A stretch of 64,000 bases of DNA from Gongronella butleri (taxonomy: Eukaryota > Mucoromycota > Mucoromycetes > Mucorales > Cunninghamellaceae). The position numbers and the translations under genes were made by a program. The notes beneath the pieces are model-generated. The model did no database searches, was not told where the DNA came from, and saw only the letters and a list, made by a program, of their open reading frames with translations. This document shows positions 18,289-63,950 of this stretch, piece by piece; position 1 is the first letter of the stretch; every line of letters starts with the position of its first letter. The stretch lies in the NCBI GenBank assembly GCA_025201375.1, contig JAIWZP010000006.1:248001-312000 (forward strand), written 5' to 3'.

Positions 18289-19040
18289 TGGAAAAAGGGG
18301 AAGAGTGCGTGAAAAGCGTTTAGAGAGGGAAATTGGACGTGAATATGGAAAAAAAAGAGGGAAGAACAAGAGAGATAAAAAAAGGGCAAGGCGAGACTCT
18401 TTGGAAAAAAAAAAAGTGAGTGGTGTTGCCCCGTGAGTGTGGGTTGTAAGGAGTGCAAAGGGGAGGCAAAAAGGACGAAGGAGAGGAAGGAAGCAGTAAG
18501 AGCGTGCGCCGTTGCGAAATCTGACGGGAAAAAGGAGACCAAAGGCAAAAAGGGGAGTGGACAAAAAAAAAGAGTGAGTCTAGTCCTTACGTGGCTTTGC
18601 CCACGCCGCTGTTGTCTTTTTTACCTTGCTAGAGATTCAAACGCGGTCAAAGAAAAAGAAAAAGGGAAAAAGAGAATTGAAAAAAAAGGGGGAGCGGACG
18701 GGCGGCGGGGGGGGGGCGAGACTCATTTTTGTGCGCGTTTCTCAGAAATGAAATGTGCATCTGGGCCAATCAGACTGCATTTTGCTTGTTCAACACGTCC
18801 ATTAGGCACACATGATTTTTCCAAAGTGGGGGAGGAGCACGCTGCCCAAAATGCTAGTTTATTAGGCTCACATTTGTGGACAAATGTCTTTGTGCTTGGA
18901 ATCAACGAGAGACAGAGAGAGAGAGAGAGGAAAAAAAAAGGAGTGAGCAGGGAAAAGAGGGGATATGAAAGGGCATAAACATTCATTCAGGCCTTTGGGA
19001 AAGGGGGAGGGGATGCCGGGGGATGCAACGGGATAAATGT
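18289..19040. other. Intergenic, purine-rich upstream region of the ankyrin gene
   Basis: Strongly purine-rich on the plus strand (18300-18720 and 18900-18990), that is, pyrimidine-rich on the coding strand of the minus gene starting at 18288. A CCAAT sequence on the plus strand lies near 18765. No gene is supported. Confidence 0.35.
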
Positions 19041-60365: not shown

Positions 60366-62497
60366 ATGGCCATTCTGACGTCTGTCAAGGACTATATCAA
60401 GCGGCATCGACGTGGCCTGCTAGTCACAGCCACCGTCGCCGGCGGCACTTACCTTGCCGGCCGCTACGCCTCAAACAAACTCAGAGAGTTCCAAGAAAAG
60501 TCCACCTCGGAGCGCATGGCCAAGGAAAAGTAAGAACTTGGTGGCCATAAACGAAGGAGAAAAGGGGAAAAAGGAGTGGTCAAGGCGCTCAATGGCTCAT
60601 TTTTTTCATTTTTGTTAAAAAGTCTGAAGCGGCGATTCCAGCAAAATCAAAACGACTGCGTTTTCACGGTGCTGTCGCTGCTTCCAACGCTGGGCGACCA
60701 GGTTTTGTACGACATGAACATTGAGGCGTCGTGGGCCAAGCTGCAAGAGTCGCGCAAGCTCGAGAAAATCGTGGAAAAGAGGCGCCAGGACAAGGAAAAG
60801 CGCCGCCAGGAGCGACTCGAACAAAAAGCCAAGCGTCAGCAAGAAAAGCAGGAGAAAGCCGCGGCGGCTGCTGCTGCTGCTGCTCTCGCTGCTGCCGAGG
60901 TTCAAGCCAAGGAGCAACCTGAGGAGGAACCAAAGGTCACGGACGACGCCAATGCCACCGAAGACCAGCCCAAATCTGATGAAAACAATGAAGAAGCGGC
61001 CAATGCCAATGGTGATCAGGATGAGGGCCAATTGCAGCAGCCTGCGGCAGGTGACGAGGAGAACAAGGGCACGGCTACGGTATTAGCGCCACCTGCATTG
61101 GAAATGAGCGTCGGCAGCATCTCTGACTCGGTGTACACGACGACCACGACATCGTCGTCGGTGGTGGTGGTCCATGAGGATGAATTGGACGAAGACGAGG
61201 ACGACGAGAGTGACGACGACGAAGATGACATTGATTTGTCCGCACTTCTTGACAAAAAGGCCAAATACCTGTTGTGGGAGGACATCAAGCTCCAGAGTAA
61301 GCTTTTTTTATTTTTTTTTTGAAAATGTCCCTGGAGCTCACCTTTTTATTTCTTTTTAAAAAAGGCTTTACGCGCACAATGGCGTCGATTTACTCGGTGA
61401 CGTTTTTGACCTTGTTGACGCACGTCCAATTGAATTTGCTCGGCCGATTCACGTATGTGTGGTCTGTGTCTGTGCTGAACAAGAGCGAGCCGACAATCCG
61501 CTTGCAGTATGGCGATGACCAGCCCGACAATGGCCTGCTGGATCCCAAGACCGAGCGTATGTTCCTGAGCGTCAGCTGGTGGCTGTTGCACCGCGGCTGG
61601 CGCAAGTGCGTTGAGCGTGTCCAAGAAGCCGTCCAGGAGGAAATCAAAAAGTAATGGTTCATCGACGTGGCAAAACAATTGCGCCTCTTCCCCCCCCCTT
61701 TTTTTTTACTTGTCAAAAAGCTCAACATCCTCCTTTTTTTCGATTTTTTTTCGATCAGTCTCCCTCTCAAGAGCATCATCACGTACGGTGGCGCCCAAGA
61801 CATCATCAAGAACCTTCGACAACGCGTTGAATATGAAGAGGATGGCACGACGCCCTTCAGGTAAAAGCAAAAAAAAAAAAGAGGAATGGAGCGGTGCATT
61901 GACCTTTTTTTTTTTTTTGTCGTTGTCGTTACACAGCTTCCGATCGTGGATGTTGCCAGATAGCCACGATGACGAGCGTGAATTCCTACGTGAGAGCGGG
62001 TTTAGTGCCGAGGAGATGAACGAGACGCTTGCGGGCGTGTCGCTGCGCCAGCTTTTGGACGAAACCAAGGACTTTTTGGACAGCCCCGACTTTGTGTCTG
62101 TGCTGTCGTGCTGCTTGGAGGAGGTGTACGGCATCTTTAACCACAATGTCTTTGGCAAGGCGCTGCTGCCGTCGCTCGACCCCGCCGATCGCATCCAGGA
62201 GATCACCGACGACGCCGTCGAGAAGAAAATGACCCTCGCCAATCTGTTACCCTCCATCAGCCGCCAAGCGCATCTCATCATCGCTGGCAATGAATACCTC
62301 AATGTAAGAAAAAGAAAAAAAAAGAAAGAAATATGCAAAAAGCGTGTCCATGGCCCGCCTCGCCCCTTTGTTTGGACAGCCATTGACTCGCTCTTGCTCT
62401 TGCTCGTTTTTAATAATAGGGATTTGCGTACATCAAGGAATTGCAGGCGTTTTCCGCAATGATCTACACGCAATATGGCGAAGAAGTGAATGCGTAG
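60366..62497 (+). CDS. PEX3: Peroxin 3 (peroxisomal membrane biogenesis factor)
   Basis: Six exons (60366-60529, 60623-61296, 61365-61650, 61759-61860, 61937-62303, 62420-62497) give 556 residues. The start has a basic segment and one membrane helix (YIKRHRRGLLVTATVAGGTY), followed by the Pex3 motif LKRRFQQNQNDCVFTVLSLL. Later come YSVTFLTLLTHVQLNLLGR, SVSWWLLHRGWRKC, a KSIITYGGAQDIIKNLR part and a C-terminal helix ending IYTQYGEE. Pex3 anchors Pex19 and inserts peroxisomal membrane proteins. The chain is longer than usual because of a roughly 170-residue insertion after residue 95: Lys/Arg/Glu coiled coil, a run of Ala, then a very acidic stretch. Confidence 0.93.
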
Positions 62498-62710: not shown

Positions 62711-63950
62711 ATGGCTGAAATCAGACGCAAGTTGGTTATTGTTGGTGATGGTGCTTGTGGCAGTAAGTGAAAAAAAAAGCGCAAAAGGCGAAAATCGACA
62801 AATTGGCGCAATTAACTAATTCGTGTGTCTTTTTTTTTTTCGTACAGAGTAAGTGCTGCTGGCGTGTTTGACGAAAGCGCCGTAGAGGGAGCGACTGTGA
62901 GGCGCCAGTGCAGCCTGTGCTCGTGAGAGAGAAAGGACACAAAAAAAGGAAAAACAGGGAGGGGAAGCAAACGACCAGGGGAAGGAAGGAAATTGACCCT
63001 GTATTTCTATTATTTTCGTTGTTGGGTTCTTAGGGTAAGCCCAAAAGCTTTAAGCAAGGAAAGGGAGACGAGGACTCTCACACTGCCCAATTCGCGGCTT
63101 TTTTTTTAAAAAAAAAATCATAGACGTGTCTCTTGATTGTGTTTTCCAAGGGCACCTTCCCCGAGTTTTACGTGCCCACCGTGTTTGAAAATTACGTTGC
63201 GGACGTCGAGGTCGATGGCAAGCACGTCGAATTGGCCTTGTGGGATACGGCTGGTAAGGAAAATAGGAAAAAAAAAAAAAGTTAGAGAGAGGACGACTCA
63301 CCCTGCTTCTTATTCTTCACTAGGCCAAGAGGATTATGATCGTCTGCGACCATTGTCATACCCGGATTCGCATGTCATTCTGATTTGCTATGCGGTCGAT
63401 TCACCTGACTCGCTTGAAAATGTGCAAGAAAAGGTAAAAATCGCTTTTAAAACACGGGCCACGGACTCAATTTTTCGTTTCTAGTGGATTTCCGAGGTGC
63501 TGCACTTTTGCCAAGGCTTGCCCATCTTGCTCGTTGGCTGCAAGAAGGATCTGCGCCACGACCCCGCCACCATTGAAGAGCTGAAGCGCAATTCGCAGCG
63601 CCCCGTGGCTATGGAAGAGGTAAAAAGCTCTCGAATTGAAAAGATTAGGCCGCCTTCATTAGGCGACTACGCATTTATGCGCTTTTTTTTTTTTCTAATT
63701 GTAGGCGGCCGCCGTTGCCCAGCGTATTGGCGCGTACAAGTATTTGGTAAGAATCAAAAGGGATGGGCGCCATGGGTGCAATCACATGTCTCTCTGACAG
63801 TGGGAATCCCTTTTTTTTTTTTTTTATCATTGATAGGAATGCTCTGCCAAGACGGGCGAAGGCGTGCGCGAGGTGTTTGAGCACGCGACGCGTGCGGCGC
63901 TGATGGTGAACAAAAAGAAGAAGAAGAGTCATTTTTGCAAGGTGCTGTAA
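62711..63950 (+). CDS. RHO1: Rho1-type small GTPase, with two 1-nt exons
   Basis: Eight exons: 62711-62762, 62848 (A), 63034 (G), 63124-63253, 63324-63433, 63485-63619, 63705-63746, 63837-63950; 585 nt, 194 residues. The P-loop is GDGACGKTCLLIVF: exon 1 ends GGC-A, the two single-nucleotide exons supply A and G to make AAG (Lys), and exon 4 opens with ACG TGT. Other motifs: effector loop [53 protein letters not shown] and a polybasic tail with CAAX box CKVL (geranylgeranylation type). Rho1 drives glucan synthase, Pkc1 and actin polarity. Introns of 85, 185 and 89 nt around the 1-nt exons have GTAAGT, GTAAGT and GTAAGC donors and T/C-rich acceptors. Identity is firm; the 1-nt exons are inferred. 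Confidence 0.95.

Follow-up and report, generated by a model that had tools for sequence, protein, structure and literature searches.

The RHO1 gene at the right end of the window (the whole 64,000-nucleotide stretch of DNA that was analysed) very probably assembles one codon, the AAG of its P-loop lysine Lys18, from three exons, two of which are a single base long and whose introns would be removed sequentially. Contig C67 of the genome that we searched (33.0 Mb, 110 contigs) contains the window, and RHO1 is encoded on the plus strand. Our analysis supports the interpretation of the RHO1 micro-exons given in a preliminary description of this DNA, and adds to it a second RHO1 copy, predicted consecutive two-base exons in a CDC42-like gene and four more genes with a candidate one-base exon. 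The last base of exon 1 is 62762, directly before GTAAGT at 62763, and coding resumes with ACG TGT CTC TTG at 63124, both found where that description had placed them. The sequence permits an A and a G exon between them, giving the following layout.

62711..62762, plus strand: RHO1 coding exon 1, 17 codons plus the A that opens the Lys18 codon, read from the sequence as ending TGT GGC A
62763..62847, plus strand: predicted intron 1, 85 nt, GTAAGT...TACAG, donor score 3.09, acceptor rank 13 of 36
62848..62848, plus strand: predicted one-base exon, an A that fills the second position of the Lys18 codon, GTACAG-A-GTAAGT, the same in the second copy
62849..63033, plus strand: predicted intron 2, 185 nt, GTAAGT...CTTAG, donor ranked 1 and acceptor ranked 8 of 36
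63034..63034, plus strand: predicted one-base exon, a G that fills the third position of the Lys18 codon, TTCTTAG-G-GTAAGC, the same in the second copy
63035..63123, plus strand: predicted intron 3, 89 nt, GTAAGC...CATAG, acceptor score -5.0
63124..63253, plus strand: RHO1 coding exon, starting with T19 C L L
63324..63433, plus strand: RHO1 coding exon
63485..63619, plus strand: RHO1 coding exon
63705..63746, plus strand: RHO1 coding exon
63837..63950, plus strand: final coding exon of RHO1, stop codon included; the protein ends in CKVL (CAAX-like)

Inclusion of the two one-base exons yields a coding sequence of 585 nt, and the restored frame encodes Lys and a protein of 194 residues, reproducing the product described previously. 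This protein matches the Pfam Ras family (E = 1.5e-52), and its closest solved structure is Rho1 6jik (E 4e-108); Ras fold family, a G-x4-GK[ST] P-loop and similarity to Rho1 together mark it as a Rho1/RhoA GTPase. Among the best 120 of 7,989 RHO1 matches, the proteins of highest identity (92%) are from Halteromyces and Cokeromyces, and no self match is present. The P-loop in these 120 matches is G-x4-GKT with no insertions (118 GDGACGKT and two GDGSCGKT, from a query that itself contained GKT), and because it is uninterrupted there, exactly two bases must be supplied between exon 1 and the exon starting ACG. Directly upstream of RHO1 lies a Pex3 gene (window about 61020–62497), whose nearest of 55 matches, again with no self match, is from Absidia cylindrospora (67% identical); Halteromyces and Absidia belong to the Cunninghamellaceae of the Mucorales. 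The genome is that of a fungus, in all likelihood a Mucorales mould.

We enumerated splice chains with GT or GC donors in or near exon 1, AG acceptors and at most two middle exons of 1–60 nt, with introns no shorter than 40 nt and a maximum of 90 coding nt ahead of the LLIV anchor, and asked which of them carried G-x4-GK[ST] in frame. Of the 117,312 chains, a single one recovers the P-loop of the window gene, and it is the pair originally proposed, A (62848) plus G (63034), leaving this copy without an alternative among the enumerated chains. The acceptor of intron 3 is likewise the only one in the enumeration that fits an exon starting ACG. A scan of the 361-base gap (62763–63123) agrees with the earlier count of exactly two AG-N-GT sites. 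Each places one base between a canonical AG and GT with GT-AG introns on either side, as do the two sites of the second copy, and in the enumeration each base is needed for both frame and motif, its omission leading to an early stop. The gap holds no AG-NN-GT site, and whether the donor is GT, GC or AT, no exon of two bases in it gives AA or AG, in keeping with the earlier description, in which no two-base exon or other donor that would serve could be found. Reading five bases, AGTAA, as the exon at 62848 would give Lys followed by a stop codon, and neither longer middle exons nor earlier exon 1 donors fit within the limits of the enumeration.

The frequency of such chains by chance was assessed with 4000 dinucleotide shuffles per gap, in which rescuing chains were counted by donor strictness. 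For the window gap, a rescuing chain was present in 1472 of 4000 shuffles if any GT was accepted, in 153 of 4000 with GTRNG and in 13 of 4000 with GTAAG[TC], the kind of donor seen here. Taken alone, the window gap thus goes beyond chance only moderately, which is suggestive rather than conclusive. The corresponding counts were 143, 7 and 1 of 4000 for the second RHO1 copy, and 64, 4 and 0 of 4000 for the CDC42-like gene, and it is these two genes that settle that the layout is more than chance.

The second RHO1, which emerged when this genome was searched at the protein level, lies on the minus strand of contig C56. All seven exons before the last have identical sizes in both copies (52, 1, 1, 130, 110, 135 and 42 nt). 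Its predicted one-base exons, A at C56:466828 and G at C56:466698 on the minus strand, lie in the islands TTTAG-A-GTAAGT and ATTAG-G-GTAAGC, and introns 1–3 measure 122, 129 and 98 nt. Conserved AG-N-GT islands in related genes had been named in the preliminary description as a check, and both islands, A then G, indeed recur here at the same codon positions. Two of 7,305 chains fit this copy, both with the A and G one-base exons and one of them using a GC donor. Compared over 180 codons, the RHO1 copies have a pS of 0.64, a dS of 1.42, with silent sites near saturation, and a dN of 0.059 (dN/dS about 0.04); this low dN at high dS places both proteins under strong purifying selection, and the same two islands are retained, within one genome, at a dS of about 1.4. 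In a tree of 30 rows, both copies group with Halteromyces, Cokeromyces, Choanephora and others (support only 88/88); the tree gives no order inside the group holding both copies and does not resolve the timing of the duplication. Compared copy with copy, introns 1–4 and 7 score better than mononucleotide shuffles, of which there were 300 and 0 to 1.7% reached as high a score, and introns 5 and 6 do not score above theirs; by sequence, the introns of the two genes appear neither alignable nor strictly unrelated, with short local matches. Intron 2 of the second copy (L029, minus strand) contains an extra AG-CCAA-GTAAGC site with TACTAAC just downstream, possibly a decoy donor, and an exon from the first island to this site would read Lys and then stop.

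A related arrangement is predicted in the gene that we take to be CDC42-like (L037:539–967, corresponding to contig C28:6538–6966). The Rho-family names used here are presumptive, and our working labels were reversed, with 'RAC' for L037 and 'CDC42' for L031 and L032. The P-loop of this gene reads GTG GG-GTAAGT ... CAACAG-GA-GTACGT ... TTATAG-AG-GTGAGC ... TTCTAG-ACC TGC, in which two consecutive two-base exons (GG-GA-AG-ACC), at C28:6654–6655 and C28:6786–6787, are predicted to rebuild the P-loop Gly-Lys. Two of 16,103 chains fit, both of the 2+2 type, with GA or, using a GC donor, CA as the first exon. Introns after the first and third bases of the Lys codon are common to RHO1 and the CDC42-like gene. 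The six other Rho-family genes examined have one ordinary intron in the P-loop region or none, and a Rab11-like gene has one intron near the P-loop. In a Rab2-like gene (L092 minus strand, C37:144300–145000), an 11-nt exon, GCGTAGGAAAG, encodes the P-loop VGK; as in RHO1, the Lys codon is immediately followed by an intron. Introns seem to have piled up at neighbouring positions of the P-loop motif in the Rho-family genes of this genome.

Some of the splice signals are weak by the standard of 36 ordinary introns. Donors 1 and 2 of window RHO1 take ranks 0 and 1 among them, mainly because A precedes GT (found in one of 36 ordinary donors), and acceptor 3 (-5.0) is lower than all 36 ordinary acceptors. 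When the RHO1 exons are joined from 5' to 3', the score of the next donor rises from 3.27 to 4.62 and then from 5.98 to 6.91, the donor contexts becoming CAA-GTAAGT and AAG-GTAAGC. In the CDC42-like gene, donors 2 and 3 take ranks 0 and 1 of 36 and the first acceptor (-0.54) is below all 36; joining from 5' to 3' leaves donor 2 unchanged at 1.38 and lowers donor 3 from 3.27 to 2.66. Branch-like TTAAC and CTAAT lie 32 and 28 nt upstream of the 3' end of intron 1 in the window gene. Branch-like YTRAY words within 70 nt of the intron end are absent from RHO1 intron 3, intron 1 of the second copy and CDC42-like introns 1 and 2, and are likewise absent from 19 of 36 ordinary introns.

We trained a gene finder on these 36 ordinary introns, which come from nine Rho-family genes. 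With one-base exons allowed, it took both in the window gene, but paired them with incorrect neighbours (62734 and 63151) and ran the gene together with the one upstream; in the second copy it took the G alone, and it missed the GA exon of the CDC42-like gene. Forcing single sites changed the score by +2.0 for the window A, +6.7 for the window G, +8.9 for the G of the second copy and -3.8 for its A.

On the reading that we favour, the three introns would follow the three successive bases of the Lys18 codon and, being short, would be excised singly and in succession by intron definition. Each splice would add one base to exon 1 and set the next GTAAG donor right against that base, a ratchet that would resemble recursive splicing except that one base is retained per step. 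One base cannot accommodate 3' and 5' splice-site factors simultaneously. A similar argument about a one-base exon and splice-site factors is made in the accessible text of the APC11 study (PMC4674806). Ordinary introns of the same gene family span 51–176 nt, and as the introns around the RHO1 micro-exons are of ordinary or somewhat long size, sequential intron definition is the simplest path. The sequence of RHO1 is compatible with recursive splicing, the donor being regenerated at each predicted join; that these sites are used in RNA, and in succession, is what we infer, as is any part in regulation. More tentatively, the invariant P-loop Lys of polarity GTPases (both RHO1 genes and the CDC42-like gene) may be built by three successive splices that give one or two bases each, a one-base ratchet kept in this fungal lineage since before the RHO1 duplication because incomplete products stop early, with GTPase output tied to the fidelity of the spliceosome.

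The bases of the gap can also be parsed in other ways. A two-base exon AG at 62848–62849, followed by an intron that starts with TA and runs to 63123, would make the second island a chance occurrence, and CAG-AG-TAAGTG and TTTAG-AG-TAAGTC can be read so in both RHO1 copies. We consider this very improbable, since it requires a TA-AG intron although a canonical GT-AG path exists, and leaves unexplained the second island, TAG-G-GTAAGC, which is rightly ordered in both copies; the CDC42-like gene, moreover, has a path with GT donors throughout. To our knowledge, TA-AG introns fall outside the known spliceosomal classes. It is exceedingly improbable that the region represents a stwintron, in which one intron is nested inside the splice site of another, instead of exons between introns. 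Stwintrons are known in fungi and, according to the accessible parts of the reports, are also removed by consecutive splicing (PMC9024468, PMC12403724), but neither donor nor acceptor is interrupted by an internal intron in window RHO1: the GT and AG ends examined are intact in all three introns, with no split splice signal. Each island also leaves a base required in the mRNA to encode Lys, and a shift of a single base in any one of the three introns would abolish its GT-AG ends.

The window copy might instead be decayed or misassembled, with islands that arose by chance, while the cell depends on another RHO1. The presence of a second RHO1 in the genome, the weak first donors of the window gene and the 1472 of 4000 window-gap shuffles with a rescuing chain, if any GT donor counts, would all fit this account. 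That second, diverged copy, however, has the same layout and islands on a different contig, which makes assembly error or decay very unlikely, as would be the loss of the same exon from both copies in assembly; the dN/dS of about 0.04 and the other four introns of window RHO1, all GT-AG with the frame intact, also speak against it. Both a longer exon lost in assembly and a pseudogene were rejected on the layout of the second copy and the dN/dS. As an addition to sequential removal of the three introns, not a replacement for it, the micro-exon pair could be a regulated switch, with partial splicing throttling RHO1 and CDC42 output. Skipping one or both micro-exons would leave 21–38 residues in the window gene, 21–30 in the second copy and 18–29 in the CDC42-like gene, and the layout recurs across three Rho-family genes, but most frame-breaking micro-exons cause early stops anyway and the six other Rho-family genes have their single ordinary P-loop-region intron or none, so we regard a switch as unlikely.

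At the ratchet points of recursive splicing, a donor is regenerated at the end of exon 1 with no base left; a donor would be regenerated in RHO1 and the CDC42-like gene as well, but here one or two bases would remain. Recursive splicing has been discussed for the one-base exon of Arabidopsis APC11 (PMC4674806, accessible text), a constitutive exon for which the authors favour intron definition and recursive, one-after-another splicing. That exon is single, isolated, shown in RNA and from a plant, whereas those of RHO1 are two in a row, from a fungus and predicted from sequence. The accessible part of a study of plant microexons (PMC8831610) describes 1-nt microexons in VPS55 and APC11 that were overlooked by annotation, with RNA-seq support for the APC11 exon, an Arabidopsis 1-nt microexon transcript detected by RT-PCR and conserved GTRAGT donors in VPS55. 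It also reports adjacent microexons of 5 and 12 nt and, in contrast to RHO1, no adjacent one-base pair in that same part; consecutive longer microexons occur in a plant peptidase (PMC8831610, PMC11096116, accessible text). In Fusarium CYP621A, a one-base exon, AG-G-GT, completes a codon in a conserved motif with support from SRA reads; its report counts it as the second such case and as the first from a gene of a fungus (PMC12940212). It is single and in a P450 gene, whereas the present genome combines predicted pairs in Rho-family GTPases with other candidates. Mammalian RPS24 has three microexons in succession, but these are of 3, 18 and 22 bp, none below codon length, and alternatively spliced (PMC12686416, in the part accessible). 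Neighbouring introns one base apart also occur in the mitochondrial rnl gene of Ophiostoma, although these are group II and not spliceosomal introns (PMC12308204, in the part accessible). Isolated one-base exons have thus been published already, and a search of the open-licence literature, with subscription literature outside its scope, returned no consecutive one-base exons in the titles, abstract openings and passages that it covered.

If true, this structure would shift the minimum for exon architecture, so far a one-base exon standing alone, to one-base exons in succession, with an essential codon broken base by base in genes that the cell presumably needs. RHO1 would allow one to ask, at the level of a natural gene, if the spliceosome is able to proceed strictly intron by intron without a definable exon. 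Tiny exons are rarely reported and easily overlooked in annotation. Because the simple gene finder used here misses the exact structures, and microexons are often missed by annotation (PMC12940212, PMC8831610, accessible text), conserved genes that seem frameshifted may be intact. As an apparent site of intron pile-up, the P-loop of Rho-family genes would also have a bearing on intron gain.

One-base exon candidates recur elsewhere in this genome, with no evidence that they are common. An initial pattern (TTTNYAG, a gap of 0–30 and GTAAGT) gave 128 sites genome-wide, and YYNYAG-N-GTAAGT gave 46, or 41 after joining repeats. Other gap sizes (k) gave 36 (k=0), 23 (k=2), 24 (k=3) and 28 (k=4) sites; the excess at k=1 is modest and a reversed-pattern control exceeds the real count at each gap size (165 for k=1 and between 141 and 204 across all five gaps), and the counts therefore carry little weight as proof. 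Free gene models of the 46 sites placed 11 at the last base of an ordinary exon, four within an exon, four within a modelled intron and 27 beyond any model. Forcing the one-base exon clearly improved the gene model at four of 46 sites, by 7.8–20.0 units, in unrelated conserved genes:

C1:1188048: candidate one-base exon in locus L040
C28:298237: candidate one-base exon in locus L053
C67:386652: candidate one-base exon in locus L072
C78:135310: candidate one-base exon in locus L077

The four genes encode a GPR1/FUN34 transporter, ribosomal protein L24, a rhomboid protein and a phosphoesterase, and all four look rebuilt by their predicted exon. Including it raised the Pfam score in each (4/4), from 76.6 to 173.7 bits for GPR1/FUN34, 85.9 to 103.3 for L24e, 56.9 to 64.9 for rhomboid and 202.4 to 255.8 for the phosphoesterase; the models compared were the gene finder's own, trimmed by hand, and the rival for GPR1/FUN34 was also shorter (83 against 139 residues). 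The remaining 42 of 46 sites are without clear support, and the idea that one-base exons are common genome-wide is not supported. We did not count slight gains at L082 (1.1) and L046 (0.2, one of four repeat copies), and in a shorter context L046, L063, L059 and L078, all repeat members, gained 0.3–1.7. Among a further 80 pattern sites, three of them RHO1's own, none of the eight intron-like ones examined was supported. In the window and the other loci analysed (251,386 bases together), the best 45 of 50 candidates, from a filter that misses the CDC42-like sites, contained no one-base exon in the window besides the two of RHO1. A repeat carrying TTACAG-T-GTAAGT is present in four copies (L046, L063, L070 and L081) and inflates the one-base-gap count. 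On the minus strand of the window, an AG-CAAG-GT site lies at 18627, where a four-base exon has a near-neutral score of -0.1.
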